Below are positions 16,676 through 63,638 of a stretch of DNA of 64,000 nt, in pieces. Source of the stretch: Defluviitalea saccharophila. GTDB lineage: Bacteria; Bacillota; Clostridia; Lachnospirales; Defluviitaleaceae. The stretch lies in the NCBI RefSeq assembly GCF_038396635.1, contig NZ_CP121687.1, forward strand, positions 1,488,001 through 1,552,000, given 5' to 3'. The notes beneath the pieces are model-generated. The model worked only from the letters and a program-made list of their open reading frames with translations, was not told the origin of the DNA and searched no databases. The position numbers and the translations under genes were made by a program. Numbering within the stretch: the stretch's first letter is position 1; every line of letters starts with the position of its first letter.

Positions 16676-16830
16676 TTTTTGATTATGGAATCAAAAAAGA
16701 GTTTCGCTTGCGAAACTCTCGTGCCGCGCGGTCGGCAAAGCCGACAAAATGCAATACGCGCGAGTGTACATCCCTGCAGGTTTTTTATTGCATAGGAAAT
16801 TCGGAGGAATTTCCTATGCAATAAAAAACC
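16676..16830 (-). repeat. Dispersed terminator-associated element, full copy A
   Basis: This copy has several stem-loops. A 24-bp perfect palindrome (16779-16802 with 16807-16830, loop GGAG on plus) has the core ATTGCATAGGAAATTC. A body holds CCTGCAGG, GTCGGC-AAA-GCCGAC (16731-16745) and GAGTTTCG-CTTG-CGAAACTC (16699-16718). An outer 9-bp stem lies at 16676-16697. The body is clearly GC-richer than the flanks. In the minus direction the palindrome starts at the U-tract of the terminator behind the core-binding-domain gene. Related copies lie at about 28.3, 53.5 and 63.2 kb. No ORF in it is credible. It fills most of the 320-base gap between its neighbours. Confidence 0.8.
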
Positions 16831-16849
16831 AACTATCCTTGATAGTTGG
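16823..16849 (-). terminator. Intrinsic terminator of the core-binding-domain gene
   Basis: On the minus strand the arms CCAACTATC and GATAGTTGG (loop of 3) are followed by TTTTTTATT. The T-run doubles as the outer arm of the adjoining dispersed palindrome. Confidence 0.75.
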
Positions 16850-18158: not shown

Positions 18159-18773
18159 ATGGATTTTAATAAAGATGCCTTAGACGCACTCATTAAAGAA
18201 TTTAGCTCTTTAGATGTTATTGAATTGTCGGATATTCCGAATATAGACTTATACATGGATCAAATAACCACTTTCTTCGATGACAAGTTAGGACCTTGGA
18301 AATTAGACGAAAAAGATAAAGTGCTTACAAAAACGATGGTTAATAATTACACGAAAGCAGATGTTCTTTTTCCGCCGATTAAAAAGAAATATTCTAAAGA
18401 GCATATCATTTTGCTTGTACTTATTTATCATTTAAAACAAGTGCTTTCAATCAATGAAATTCACACTGTATTATTTCCCATAATCCAGAAGAATATGTCT
18501 AAAACCTCTGAGGGCAATCATAAACTTCACTCTTTGTATGAAGAATTTATAAAGATTCAAAAGGAAGAAATGGGAGCTTTTGAAGAGAGCTTTTCTAAAA
18601 AAATTAATGCGCTTTTTGATAAGATCGATGGAGAAGATAAAGACAGCTACTCTGAGTTGTTTATGATCCTCATGAATTTAATTGTAAGCTCAAGTATTCA
18701 AAAACACTTTGCTCAAAAACTCATTCGCCAGTTTCCGGATATTTTTGCACAAAAAAAGATGCCAAATAAATAA
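18159..18773 (+). CDS. DUF1836 family putative regulator
   Basis: This 204-residue soluble protein carries ELSDIPNIDLYMDQITTFFD, then LTKTMVNNYTKADVLFPP and KKYSKEHIILLVLIYHLKQ. Together these form the DUF1836 signature (residues about 20-130), a helix-rich region resembling MerR-like DNA-binding modules. The C-terminal 70 residues are helical and unassigned. GGAG lies 10 bases before the ATG; an in-frame ATG two codons earlier is too close to it. The gene is plus-strand and monocistronic, with an extended -10 promoter and its own terminator. It forms the crh-proximal edge of the accessory region. A transcription role is family-based inference; targets are unknown. Confidence 0.8.
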   Translation: MDFNKDALDALIKEFSSLDVIELSDIPNIDLYMDQITTFFDDKLGPWKLDEKDKVLTKTMVNNYTKADVLFPPIKKKYSKEHIILLVLIYHLKQVLSINEIHTVLFPIIQKNMSKTSEGNHKLHSLYEEFIKIQKEEMGAFEESFSKKINALFDKIDGEDKDSYSELFMILMNLIVSSSIQKHFAQKLIRQFPDIFAQKKMPNK

Positions 18774-18783
18774 TGGCATCTTT
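18755..18783. terminator. Bidirectional terminator between the DUF1836 gene and crh
   Basis: AAAGATGCCA pairs with TGGCATCTTT across a 9-base loop that contains the DUF1836 stop codon. A-rich and T-rich flanks suit both converging genes. Confidence 0.75.
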
Positions 18784-18799
18784 CTTCGTATGCTAAATT

Positions 18800-27570: not shown

Positions 27571-28293
27571 ATGTTCCGTACGATTGTGTGGTTTATTTAT
27601 TTTTGGCTGTATCAAATAATCGCTCTATTCTTCCTGATAAAAATTTATTTTCTTAAAAAATTCAGCACTCCCGATCAAACCAATGCATACATTCATAAAG
27701 TAACCCATAATTGGGCAAAAGCAATGGTTAGAGCTACCGGCAGTAAAATTCATGTAAAAGGGCTTGAAAACGTCCCAAGCCACGGTCCTGTGCTTTTTGT
27801 AAGCAATCATCAGGGTAACTTTGATATTCCTATACTTATGGGATTTATCGATAAACCCAAAGGCTTTATCGCCAAAATTGAACTGTCTAAGCTTCCTCTT
27901 GTACATACATGGATGAAATTAATCCAATGTGTATTCATGGATCGAAAGGACTTAAGGCAATCCCTTAAAGCAATGGATCAAGGTATTCAAATATTAAAGT
28001 CAGGGCAATCCATGGTCATCTTCCCTGAAGGTACCAGAAGCAAAGGAGGTCCCATGGGAGAATTCAAAAAAGGAAGCCTGCGCCTTGCCCAAAAAACCAA
28101 TGTACCTATTGTTCCGATTGCAATTTCTGGCTCGTATAAGATAATGGAAGAAAGAGGATTCCGCATTACTCCTGCCGAGGTAGATGTTCGTATTGGGAAG
28201 CCTATCCTTCTTCAGGAACTTCCTCAGGATATGGCTAAAAATGCTATTGAATTTGTAGAATCTACTATTAAAGATTTACTTTATAATTCTTAA
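27571..28293 (+). CDS. plsC: 1-acyl-sn-glycerol-3-phosphate acyltransferase
   Basis: This 240-residue membrane-associated enzyme adds the second acyl chain to make phosphatidic acid for phospholipid synthesis. One or two N-terminal hydrophobic helices (residues 5-28) precede the acyltransferase motifs: NHQGNFD at 79-85 (the NHxxxxD catalytic box) and FPEGTRS at 151-157. The pattern PIVPIAISGSYKI completes the family. GAGGTGAG lies 4-5 bases before the ATG. The gene is monocistronic, with a terminator directly after it that is itself abutted by a dispersed palindrome. Confidence 0.93.
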   Translation: MFRTIVWFIYFWLYQIIALFFLIKIYFLKKFSTPDQTNAYIHKVTHNWAKAMVRATGSKIHVKGLENVPSHGPVLFVSNHQGNFDIPILMGFIDKPKGFIAKIELSKLPLVHTWMKLIQCVFMDRKDLRQSLKAMDQGIQILKSGQSMVIFPEGTRSKGGPMGEFKKGSLRLAQKTNVPIVPIAISGSYKIMEERGFRITPAEVDVRIGKPILLQELPQDMAKNAIEFVESTIKDLLYNS

Positions 28294-28304
28294 TATTGTT
28301 ATTT

Positions 28305-28333
28305 AAAGAGTGGTCTATGACCATTCTTTTTTT
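28305..28333 (+). terminator. Intrinsic terminator of plsC
   Basis: AAGAGTGGTC pairs with GACCATTCTT (one G-U pair, loop TAT) and runs into seven T. The T-run is immediately followed by, and shared with, dispersed palindrome copy C. Confidence 0.8.
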
Positions 28334-28373
28334 ATTGCATAGGAAATTCCTCCGAATTTCCTATGCAATAAAA
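28330..28373 (+). repeat. Dispersed terminator-associated palindrome, copy C (hairpin only)
   Basis: The 20-bp perfect stem with core ATTGCATAGGAAATTC and loop CTCC is the reverse orientation of copy A, as expected because the gene it follows is on the plus strand. The GC-rich body of copies A and B is missing. No ORF is affected. Confidence 0.8.
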
Positions 28374-36322: not shown

Positions 36323-37108
36323 ATGCGATGGTTGGATCAATTAGAAAGAAAACTAGGACGTTTTGCTGTCCGTAATTTAATGCTATACATTATAGGCTTA
36401 AATGCCATTGTTTTTGTGATGACGTATCTTTCTCAGGAAAGTTTATATTTTCTTATGCTCGATCCCACATCAGTGCTTAACGGAGAAGTCTGGCGGCTGA
36501 TTACCTTTATATTTATACCGCCTACCCTTTCTCCCCTATGGGCAGCTTTTGTATTGTATTTTTATTATATGATCGGTTCCTCCCTGGAACATGAATGGGG
36601 AACTTTTAGATTTAATCTGTTTTATTTATTAGGTATGCTTGGAACCATTTTATCTGCTTTTATATCGAATTCCATTGTATCTTCGACTTATATTAATTTA
36701 TCCCTATTTCTGGCTTTTGCAAGAATCTATCCTGATTATCAAATACTGTTATTCTTTCTTCTTCCCATAAAAATCCGGTATTTAGCTTGGCTTGACTGGT
36801 TTATTTTTATTCTTACTATTTTAGTTTATCCTCTGCCCTATAAACTTGCAGCCATCGCTTCTTTAATCAATTATTTTATTTTCTTCGGCAAGGATATTGT
36901 AACCAATGCCAAGACCAGCAGAGTGGTTCATCAAAACAGGCAACAGTTTAAAGCTCAGATGCCTAAAGACTTTACCATTCACAAATGTACAATATGCGGA
37001 ATTACCGAAAAAGATGATCCGGATATGGAGTTTAGATACTGCTCCACCTGTGAAGGAGATTATGAATACTGCATGAATCACTTAAAAAATCATGAGCACA
37101 TAAGATAG
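36323..37108 (+). CDS. Rhomboid-like membrane protein, probable pseudoprotease with Cys/His tail
   Basis: This 261-residue protein has about six membrane helices. GEVWRLITFIFIPP and the loop GSSLEHEWGTFRFNLFYLLG match the rhomboid L1/TM2-TM3 region. At the position of the catalytic GxSG serine the sequence reads YINLSLFLAFARIYPDY, and no catalytic His is seen in the last helix. So proteolysis is unlikely (inference). Residues 220-261 form a soluble tail with CTIC (222, 225), CSTC (240, 243), Cys250 and His253, 257 and 259, resembling a zinc-binding module. Translation probably couples to the mscS-like gene 12 bases upstream, with AAAGGAG before the ATG. Confidence 0.75.
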   Translation: MRWLDQLERKLGRFAVRNLMLYIIGLNAIVFVMTYLSQESLYFLMLDPTSVLNGEVWRLITFIFIPPTLSPLWAAFVLYFYYMIGSSLEHEWGTFRFNLFYLLGMLGTILSAFISNSIVSSTYINLSLFLAFARIYPDYQILLFFLLPIKIRYLAWLDWFIFILTILVYPLPYKLAAIASLINYFIFFGKDIVTNAKTSRVVHQNRQQFKAQMPKDFTIHKCTICGITEKDDPDMEFRYCSTCEGDYEYCMNHLKNHEHIR

Positions 37109-37131
37109 CGACTACATCTCACTTATGAAAT

Positions 37132-37176
37132 AAAAAAATAGAAATAGACGTTAAAGACGTTCTATTTCTATTTTTT
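37132..37176. terminator. Bidirectional terminator
   Basis: Long A/T-rich arms (AAAAAATAGAAATAGACG with its complement, one bulged T) lie between the converging rhomboid-like and PDZ-protein genes, with A and T runs at both ends. Confidence 0.8.
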
Positions 37177-53309: not shown

Positions 53310-53446
53310 TAAAATTCCCTCCTCACATGAATGCTGTCATAAAATTGGCTTATATTTTTGCTCTAATTATCCCCCCTCGTTTTTGTATATTTTGTATAGC
53401 TACATATAGATTAACACCGAATGCTACTAGAAATCAATGGAACTAT

Positions 53447-53492
53447 TTTTTATTACATAGGAAAATCTTAGAAATTTTCTATGTAATGAAAA
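53447..53492 (-). repeat. Dispersed terminator-associated palindrome, copy D (decayed hairpin)
   Basis: ATTACATAG pairs with CTATGTAAT, with a partly matched inner stem and A/T flanks. This is the same design and position as copies A-C but with several mismatches. It sits in the 223-base gap between the NAGPA gene and the LCP gene, directly behind the LCP terminator. Confidence 0.65.
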
Positions 53493-53516
53493 ACTGTATT
53501 CGCATGAATACAGTTT
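53489..53516 (-). terminator. Intrinsic terminator of the LCP operon
   Basis: AAACTGTATTC pairs perfectly with GAATACAGTTT (loop of 4). On the minus strand it runs into TTTTTC and the copy D palindrome. Confidence 0.8.
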
Positions 53517-53532
53517 CCATACTAACTATATA

Positions 53533-54846
53533 TTACTTTTCGTCCAGGCCTAATACAATTTGTATGTCGACATTATCACTTAACTCAGAGTCATCTACGA
53601 TCACTGTACTGTTTTCAAAGTATGCCTTAAGGTCTTCTCCCCATCCCTTTTTACGGACGAAAATTCTTGTACTTTGTTCCTTAGTTCCTTCATAATTTCC
53701 TATTTTAACAACATTATATCCGTCTGCTTTTAATTTATCGCTGGTAGCCTGAGCCAGACCCGAAACGGAACCTCCGTTTAAGACTTCAATCCTTGCATCT
53801 TTACTATTTTCCACTGTGGATTCTTCGTCCGCCTCTTCTGTAAAGAATATTTTATCGATCAATTCTTTTGTACCTTGTTCATCGTGAATAAAATATGACT
53901 TTCCGCCAACCATTCTGGCTTCTCCGGGAATGGTACTCATTTCAATATTGTTAACATCAATATCATCTAAATATTGAACATACTGCAATGCACTATTCAA
54001 ATCTACATCTGTCTCTACATAATCAAATAGTATTTTTATAATGGACGGAGCATTTAATATATTTTGAGGGCTTAACATCTTCTTGGCAAAAGCTTTTAAG
54101 AATTTTTGCTGGGTTTCTATTCTTCCTAAGTCCCCATAGCCTCCGCCTCTATTATCTTTTCTAAAACGAACCAGCTGCTCCGCTTGCTCTCCATTTAATG
54201 TCTGTGGTCCTGCCTTTAGATTAATAAATAATCCACCTGCTCTGTCTACATAGTAGTAATCTCTGTCTAAAGTAATTTCAACACCGCCTATTTGGTCTAC
54301 AATCTTACGAAAAGCCTCAATATTTACTTTAACATAATAATCTATATCAATGCCTAAAAGTCTTTCTACTTCTTTAACAGAATATTCGTTAGCTTTTTCT
54401 TTGCCTGCATAAGCATGTACTTCGTTGATTTTTACTGTATCCGGTACGCCGGATATTCTGCTTCGCATATCTGCAAGCATGGATTCTGTTAAGAATACCC
54501 TTGTGTCTCTTGGAACAGAAACAAGATTGACCTTCTTAGTTTCACTGTTAAATGTAGCTACAATAATTACATCGGTTCTTGTTTGATCCTTATCAACCCC
54601 AAAGATGGCTACATTGGTTCTAATTTTTTTAGGCGTCTTTTTAAATAAATCTAAAACACTTTTTTTCCCTTGACTCTTTTGACTGGGTGTCATATCATCG
54701 GAATTCTTTGCTTTTGAAAAGTGAAGATATCCATAAGTTCCTATACCTGCTAACACTATAAATGAAAAAACCATTAAAAATACTATGGAGAAAAATCTTC
54801 TAACCAAATAATGCTTACCCTTTTCTTTTTTCTTTTTTTCAGCCAT
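53533..54846 (-). CDS. LytR-CpsA-Psr family wall polymer ligase with LytR_C domain
   Basis: This 437-residue protein has a short basic N-terminus, one membrane helix (about 18-40) and an LCP catalytic domain. Motifs include FGVDKDQTRTDVIIVATF, LVSVPRDTRVFL, INEVHAYAG, and GPQTLNGEQAEQLVRFRKD with RGGGYGDLGRIETQQ. The C-terminal 80 residues form a LytR_C domain (RIEVLNGGSVSGLAQATSDKL in part). LCP enzymes move undecaprenyl-linked anionic polymers onto peptidoglycan. The ATG at 54846 follows GAGGTG by 6 bases. A second LCP gene lies 31 bases upstream, so the pair is an operon. Confidence 0.93.
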   Translation of the reverse strand: MAEKKKKEKGKHYLVRRFFSIVFLMVFSFIVLAGIGTYGYLHFSKAKNSDDMTPSQKSQGKKSVLDLFKKTPKKIRTNVAIFGVDKDQTRTDVIIVATFNSETKKVNLVSVPRDTRVFLTESMLADMRSRISGVPDTVKINEVHAYAGKEKANEYSVKEVERLLGIDIDYYVKVNIEAFRKIVDQIGGVEITLDRDYYYVDRAGGLFINLKAGPQTLNGEQAEQLVRFRKDNRGGGYGDLGRIETQQKFLKAFAKKMLSPQNILNAPSIIKILFDYVETDVDLNSALQYVQYLDDIDVNNIEMSTIPGEARMVGGKSYFIHDEQGTKELIDKIFFTEEADEESTVENSKDARIEVLNGGSVSGLAQATSDKLKADGYNVVKIGNYEGTKEQSTRIFVRKKGWGEDLKAYFENSTVIVDDSELSDNVDIQIVLGLDEK

Positions 54847-54877
54847 TGATTTCACCTCAAAGTCTTTCTGCTATTTT

Positions 54878-62934: not shown

Positions 62935-63164
62935 GATAAGTCCTCCATTCAAGTATATGTAATGTACAGGGAGTATTCCCTAGCATTTAAAGTACCATAT
63001 AATCTTCTTTAAAAACCGTCCGCTGCATGAAACATGATTTTTTCGACATGAAGCATGATTTTTTTACAGCAATATGGAAAGTGCTATTTCAATTTTGCCT
63101 TGAATAAGAATCTAAATCTATTAAATTGCGCCTATGCTGGGTAGCATCAAGGAAGCATTTGGCT

Positions 63165-63287
63165 TGTGAAACCCTTTCGCTGAGCACGATCGGCAAAGTC
63201 AACAAAATACAATATGCACGAGTGTACATCCGGCCCGTAGGACTTTTCATTTCATAGGAAATTAGGAGAAATTTCCTATGAAATAAA
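63165..63287 (-). repeat. Dispersed terminator-associated element, copy B (diverged full copy)
   Basis: It aligns over about 120 bases with copy A, including GCTTGTGAAAC, CGGCAAAGTCAACAAAAT, CGAGTGTACATCC and the palindrome ATTTCATAGGAAATT / AATTTCCTATGAAAT (63249-63263, 63270-63284, loop AGGAGA). The body stems of copy A have lost pairing, suggesting decay. It lies behind the terminator of the 77-residue gene at 63405. With that terminator it explains most of the 470-base gap before the lipoprotein gene. Confidence 0.75.
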
Positions 63288-63323
63288 AAAAGCTTTCATT
63301 CCTAAAAATAGGGACAAAAGCTT
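63285..63323 (-). terminator. Intrinsic terminator of the 77-residue gene
   Basis: On the minus strand AAGCTTT pairs with AAAGCTT, extended by CCTA/TAGG-type pairing, then seven T that run into repeat copy B. Confidence 0.7.
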
Positions 63324-63404: not shown

Positions 63405-63638
63405 TTAGCCTCTCATAAGAAAACCTATGAGTTTATCAAGATCTTCCGGTTCATATGCGATAATTTCCATTTCTGAAATGGTTAAATCACTAAAAATCTT
63501 AGTAAATGAAACATATTGAGATAACTTTGACTTTAAGTTTAATCTGTCTCCTTCAGCTGTTACTAATTCAACCTTTCCTTTACATTGATCCACAACTTCA
63601 AAAAATTTATCTACATCTTTTATGTTGGTTATTTTCAT
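63405..63638 (-). CDS. Small conserved protein of unknown role (often mislabelled poly(A) polymerase)
   Basis: This 77-residue protein begins MKITNIKDVDKFFEVVDQC and ends YEPEDLDKLIGFLMRG. I recall similar small proteins in Clostridia carrying a poly(A) polymerase label. The chain is too short and has no nucleotidyltransferase motif, so I do not accept that function. It is soluble and mixed alpha/beta. AAAGGAGG precedes the ATG by about 9 bases. It is followed by its own terminator and repeat copy B and preceded by a gap to rpsI. Confidence 0.7.
   Translation of the reverse strand: MKITNIKDVDKFFEVVDQCKGKVELVTAEGDRLNLKSKLSQYVSFTKIFSDLTISEMEIIAYEPEDLDKLIGFLMRG

Follow-up and report, generated by a model that had tools for sequence, protein, structure and literature searches.

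The 64,000-nt stretch of Defluviitalea saccharophila DNA analyzed here (the window) carries four palindromes lying directly behind intrinsic terminators, for which the initial annotation offered two readings, a mobile element aimed at terminator T-tracts or a second-stage terminator module. We asked which of these the palindromes represent, how they reached their positions, and whether the same arrangement recurs in other genomes.

The four palindromes of the window

An inverted-repeat search recovered all four palindromes at the places given by the initial annotation (copies A to D, Table 1). Each adjoins a terminator hairpin, the two having one T-run in common, the orientation follows the terminated gene (copy C, behind a plus-strand gene, points the opposite way from the other three), and the host genes are unrelated (integrase-like, a 77-aa ORF, PlsC-type, and LytR-CpsA-Psr); the neighbor of copy A is a small, phage-integrase SAM-like ORF. 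The palindromes are thus as described, but the annotation overlooked that in copies A and B the palindrome makes up no more than the terminator-side end of an element of ca. 135 nt. Tails of ca. 90 to 110 nt follow the palindrome in A and B, while C and D have none.

Table 1. Coordinates of element copies and related features. Positions without a locus prefix refer to the window.
Feature	Location	Strand	Remarks
Copy A, terminator hairpin of minus-strand gene, CCAACTATC/GATAGTTGG	16829-16849	-	T-run 16823-16828; terminator score 26.1
Copy A, palindrome (left end)	16779-16830	-	24-bp arms, 100%
Copy A, core CATAGGAAAT-N8-ATTTCCTATG	16791-16818	-	arms extend via ATTG/CAAT and T6/A6
Copy A, structured tail	16693-16780	-	90% identity over query 15-96
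Copy A, right-end hairpin GAGTTTCGCTTGCGAAACTC, then TTTTTT	16699-16718	-	scored as terminator at 16698
Copy B, terminator hairpin	63290-63323	-	behind 77-aa ORF (63405-63638, -)
Copy B, palindrome	63244-63289	-	20-bp arms, 95%; core 63253-63280
Copy B, tail	63148-63243	-	78% identity to consensus
Copy C, terminator hairpin	28305-28329	+	behind PlsC-type acyltransferase gene (27571-28293, +)
Copy C, palindrome, without tail	28330-28373	+	20-bp arms, 100%; core 28338-28365
Copy D, terminator hairpin	53491-53516	-	behind LytR-CpsA-Psr gene (53533-54855, -)
Copy D, diverged palindrome, without tail	53446-53493	-	19-bp arms, 89%
Copy D, core	53456-53483	-	2 mismatches
Empty site, terminator GGCATCTTTTTTT|GTGCAAAAATATCC	18749-18789	-	congener carries a shortened-tail copy exactly here
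IS200 copies behind terminators, window's genus and Konateibacter	L111, L112-L117, L256-L280		
Second repeat family, copies	L043:1532-1605, L075:4068-4140, L052:1455-1506		remnant in window 37102-37137

Copy number and anatomy

Searching the window's genome (3.01 Mb, one contig) for CATAGGAAAT-N{2,20}-ATTTCCTATG gave 35 exact matches, with a middle of 8 nt in every one, and 76 copies when up to three mismatches were allowed around a fixed 8-nt middle. Since the reversed control pattern had no match in this genome, the palindromes form a family that is not due to chance.

Copies were oriented by the pyrimidine-rich loop of the palindrome. From the terminator T-run, a complete copy reads NNNN-CATAGGAAAT-N8-ATTTCCTATG-N'N'N'N'-A5, followed by a GC hairpin, a bulged hairpin, and a hairpin ending in TTTCTT. 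The four bases between T-run and core vary (ATTG, ATTA, GTTA, and others) and their complement appears on the far side, before the A5. The tail (ca. 100 nt), carried by over half of the copies, consists in order of the GC hairpin GCCCTCCGGGC, AGAATGCACACTCGCGCG..., the inner hairpin GTCGGCTTTGCCGAC, and the last hairpin GAGTTTCGCTTGCGAAACTC-TTTCTT. The full element measures ca. 135 nt, with the palindrome as its left, terminator-side end. About 40% of the copies miss part of the tail, and the palindrome is absent from only one of ca. 43 tails. In none of the copies did we find a gene. The left palindrome and the right hairpin are unlike in sequence, i.e., the element has end hairpins instead of terminal inverted repeats. 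The last hairpin of the tail is terminator-like, and on the opposite strand the GC hairpin with T5 has the form of a terminator.

Both hairpin regions appear to be maintained as structures. Arm positions 1 to 5 beside the core are complementary far beyond the level of a control in which the arms were shuffled among copies, near against far (z as high as 6.9 in the window's genome and 14.7 across genera), and the pairing fades by position 9 to 10. In a congener (G001) there are 13 compensated core pairs, and one site common to both species (L013) differs by a compensated pair, indicating that in-place correction or selection also acts. Tail stems were parsed directly, as a MAFFT-based covariance model aligned them badly and was dropped; 36 of 76 non-redundant tails, many of them truncated, form the outer stem, 5' bulge, and inner hairpin, whereas among shuffled tails 6% do. 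They include 23 distinct outer strands and 21 distinct inner ones.

Terminators as insertion sites

Among 74 examined copies in the window's genome, 66 have a scored hairpin and T-run on the loop-defined side. In another three (L047, L057, and L058), terminator and tail agree in direction and the 8-nt loop alone is turned around. At least 69 of the 74 therefore follow an intrinsic terminator directly on its 3' side, in a single orientation, and for several of the others long-loop terminators were seen by eye. The background rate was 8.5% for random T5 runs and 5% for random positions. Outside the genus, a terminator was found on one side in 69 of 73 copies and on the loop-defined side in 57 (random positions, 6.4%). 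At least one copy, C3_28148 in a congener, lacks a clear terminator. Neither of the patterns that the initial annotation had named as contrary to its reading, most copies lying apart from terminators or in random orientation to the gene, was borne out within this genome or outside the genus.

Copies are also located behind the terminators of T-box leaders (L025 and L053) and of a SAM riboswitch (L024), which argues that the terminator itself, and not the end of a gene, marks the site. At the latter locus (L024:5027-5436) two SAM riboswitches stand in tandem, the first being followed by its terminator, a full element copy, and then the second riboswitch.

Empty and filled sites in two species

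The congener G001, rated 100% complete, is syntenic with the window's genome at roughly 80 to 90% identity, and at about 12 of 20 syntenic sites only one of the two species carries the element. The empty terminator in the window (Table 1) corresponds in G001 to GGCATCTTTTTTTTATTG-element-AAAACTCTTTTTT|ATGCAAGAATATCC; the same pair can also be written GGCATCTTTTTTT|GTGCAAAAAT versus TTTATTG-element-AACTCTTTTTT|ATGCAAGAAT. A second site, GTACCTGCTTTTTT|GCGTTTAAAAGG (or GTACCTGCTTTTTT|GCGTTTAAAA), is likewise empty in the window's genome and filled in G001, while the reverse holds for GCGGTTTTTCTT|GCATTAAAAG, empty in G001 and filled at its counterpart L049_4520. L042 and L049_1501 are further empty/filled pairs. 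These orthologous sites place the insertion point at the 3' end of the terminator T-run, with the palindrome next to the terminator. The empty sites are clean. In the few clean pairs no evident duplication of the target is seen, as TTTCTT stands at the right end whatever the T-run on the left. Several copies are common to both species (L013, L018, L021, L023, and L025), indicating that activity has been old and repeated. G001 has lineage-specific insertions of its own.

The palindromes therefore belong to a dispersed, inserted, oriented, and structured element at terminator T-runs. Of the two initial readings, the mobile element targeting T-tracts is supported by the empty and filled orthologous sites and by insertion at the end of the T-run. 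A second-stage terminator function may be a side effect of the terminator-like tail hairpins, but it leaves the presence/absence between species unexplained.

Distribution

We scanned 84,980 species genomes for the exact palindrome. Among the matches listed, it occurs almost only in records labeled Lachnospirales, including Butyrivibrio, Konateibacter, Lachnoclostridium, a Blautia MAG, and many uncultured Lachnospiraceae, the label exceptions being one MAG assigned to Erysipelotrichaceae and one only to Clostridia. Also among the matches listed are “Candidatus Epulonipiscium” MAGs, in which the positions of the matches coincide with those in two genomes of the window's genus (G002 and G057). 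The 53 genomes of the order sampled outside the genus had at most one match each, and carriers outside the genus keep the layout and terminator association of the window's genome. As the scan required an exact core, conservation of the core across genera is ascertained, which does not affect flanks and tails. No real match to the element was found in Rfam (17 loci). Carriage by phages or plasmids was discarded, as there was no match to the exact pattern in IMG/VR viral contigs, nor in phage and plasmid collections; these negatives, like that in Rfam, apply at the search sensitivities employed. Among the papers searched, none described this repeat or terminator targeting by IS200.

IS200 and Y1 transposases in carrier genomes

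IS200 (PF01797) is represented by five near-identical copies in the window's genome and two in G001. Together with eight from Konateibacter, 15 IS200 copies were inspected. Each begins immediately 3' of a terminator hairpin with a T-rich run, its left end facing the terminator, as for the element. Two of the IS200 sites are exactly empty in the sister strain G057, without duplication. The right end of IS200 is itself a hairpin followed by ATATTTATT, and at two loci (L114 and L256) IS200 is inserted exactly between the T-run and the palindrome of an element copy. The ends of the resident IS200 share no sequence with the element beyond the target. We found neither a tnpA copy bearing the element ends nor any transposase tied to these ends, and for lack of such a relative we do not claim membership of IS200/IS605. 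No Y1 transposase was found in G002 or G057, nor in 3 of 12 further carriers; most of these assemblies are incomplete.

In the Konateibacter IS200 at L256, tnpA is followed on its 3' side by ca. 200 nt of structured non-coding sequence up to the right end, in which a stem with a GGAAG bulge and an inner hairpin bears an apparent likeness to the bulged-hairpin tail of the element. This likeness is given no weight below.

Mechanism and rival explanations

With slightly more confidence than doubt, we favor a non-autonomous element with terminators as its target, whose single-stranded DNA would be mobilized in trans by a transposase of the IS200/IS605 type (HUH Y1). In its favor are the constant anatomy of the 76 copies, their position behind terminators, the empty and filled pairs, the covarying arms, and the resident IS200, which uses such sites in the same orientation, has a right end of hairpin plus ATATTTATT, and is inserted at the T-run/palindrome junction of two element copies. 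The enzyme would accept a hairpin with a T-rich run, possibly because a terminator resembles the element's own right end (hairpin plus TTTCTT), and a guide role may fall to the A5 at the foot of the left hairpin, through pairing with the T-run of the target. The A5, a candidate guide on the 3' foot, is complementary to the target T5, and the flanking arms covary; no right-end guide was seen. Classical IS200/IS605 left ends have their guide 5' of the hairpin, so this position speaks against the IS200-type reading. So do the failure to find a gene in any copy, the lack of a transposase linked to the ends, the ends of IS200, which share no sequence with the element beyond the target, the lack of an evident right-end guide, the carriers without a Y1 match, and the partial tail loss, which IS200-type transposition does not predict, although deletions explain some cases (C1_300315 and C2_134872). 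More tentatively, and with doubt outweighing confidence, a Lachnospirales-wide class (at least two sequence families plus IS200) might read the terminator as a right-end mimic, selected by A-run/T-run pairing, making stop signals a genome-wide safe harbor for single-strand transposition.

A first rival is movement of the element by another enzyme, a RAYT-like Y1, another HUH protein, or a since-lost transposase, with the likeness to IS200 being convergence on terminators. We regard this as unlikely, yet the strongest of the rivals. The ends of the element differ from those of IS200, several carrier genomes show no Y1 gene, and the window's genome does encode a single-copy 293-aa RAYT-like Y1 protein (L118:1432-2313). 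However, no palindrome (up to five mismatches) or tail flanks this gene, and its protein has no match in G001, a genome rated complete and with insertions of its own; L118 was rejected as the driver on the absence of element copies around it. Quite improbable, in our judgment, is a retroelement, in which a structured RNA would be copied into the target, primed by the T-run or carried by the reverse transcriptase of a group IIC intron. The constant terminator-side end, the variable loss of the distal end, the conserved structured tail, and an A5 that could pair with T5 would suit it, as would shortened copies that keep their flanks whole (L042, L049_1501, and C3_29445). Retro-type truncation, which some copies fit, was nevertheless rejected as the explanation of tail loss, since others are microhomology deletions (C1_300315, across GTATTT repeats) or retain the right end (C2_134872, with half of the palindrome). 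Reverse transcriptase (PF00078), found in the window's genome, was not found in G002, G057, or G001, the last rated complete and with private insertions. Least probable of all, and very much so, is a non-mobile module kept by the host, for instance as a 3'-end stabilizer or as a terminator, either second-stage or bidirectional. In favor are the compensatory changes that conserve the arms of the palindrome and the stems of the tail, the terminator-like hairpin closing the tail, and the strict orientation to the gene; against this, sites differ between species as described above, only a minority of terminators is occupied (4 of roughly 25 in the window), the neighboring genes are unrelated, and copies are degenerate and truncated.

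Comparison with known systems

The preferred IS200-type reading agrees with several features of IS200/IS605 and their PATE-like derivatives, namely, the lack of terminal inverted repeats, the lack of an evident target duplication, a hairpin at either end, an orientation that is fixed with respect to a short, T-rich target, and the use of the same terminator sites by the resident IS200. The element differs in having no tnpA, a left palindrome abutting the target with a possible guide 3' of the hairpin, an extra conserved bulged hairpin, and no end sequence shared with the resident IS200. The bcr1 repeats of Bacillus cereus, roughly 150 nt, dispersed, and with conserved secondary structure, are likewise structured interspersed repeats, but they have a TTTAT target duplication, whereas none is evident here. 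Terminal inverted repeats and target duplication, both lacking, also separate the element from a classical MITE of a DDE insertion sequence. REP/RAYT systems, whose Y1 transposases process hairpins in single-stranded DNA (PMC6006769), likewise comprise short palindromes that are extragenic and present in tens of copies, but our element has no GTAG/GTGG tetranucleotide at the hairpin foot (the flanks being T-run and NNNN), is longer and asymmetric, does not occur in inverted pairs, and is absent around the RAYT-like gene.

Terminator targeting as such is already established for group IIC introns, which insert just 3' of intrinsic terminators in one orientation, the hairpin being recognized in single-stranded DNA (PMC3240598, citing Robart 2007). 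The element shares the position directly after the terminator and the single orientation. However, these introns are ribozymes with a reverse transcriptase, while the element has ca. 135 nt and G001 has no reverse transcriptase; no intron ribozyme core was detected at the loci searched, Rfam giving no group II intron match. A DNA-element family and its neighboring IS200 appear to use safe sites of the group IIC type across many genera. If demonstrated, this would account for some bacteria tolerating tens of insertions without broken genes and would provide a natural model of structure-guided targeting by hairpin and T-run. It would also mean that an unannotated class of repeats supplies intergenic regions and riboswitch leaders with additional terminator-like hairpins.

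A second repeat family

A second repeat family in the genus follows the same plan, with a long palindrome and then a hairpin, GCGACGTAGTCGC-TTTCTT, behind terminators (Table 1). Its sequence consists of a AAATAAGAAAGTT...AACTTTCTTATTT palindrome and a GTGCGACGTAGTCGC-TTTCTT tail. At one position of G001 (C3:27309), the palindrome of the first element is joined to an apparent tail of this second family, a possible chimera.
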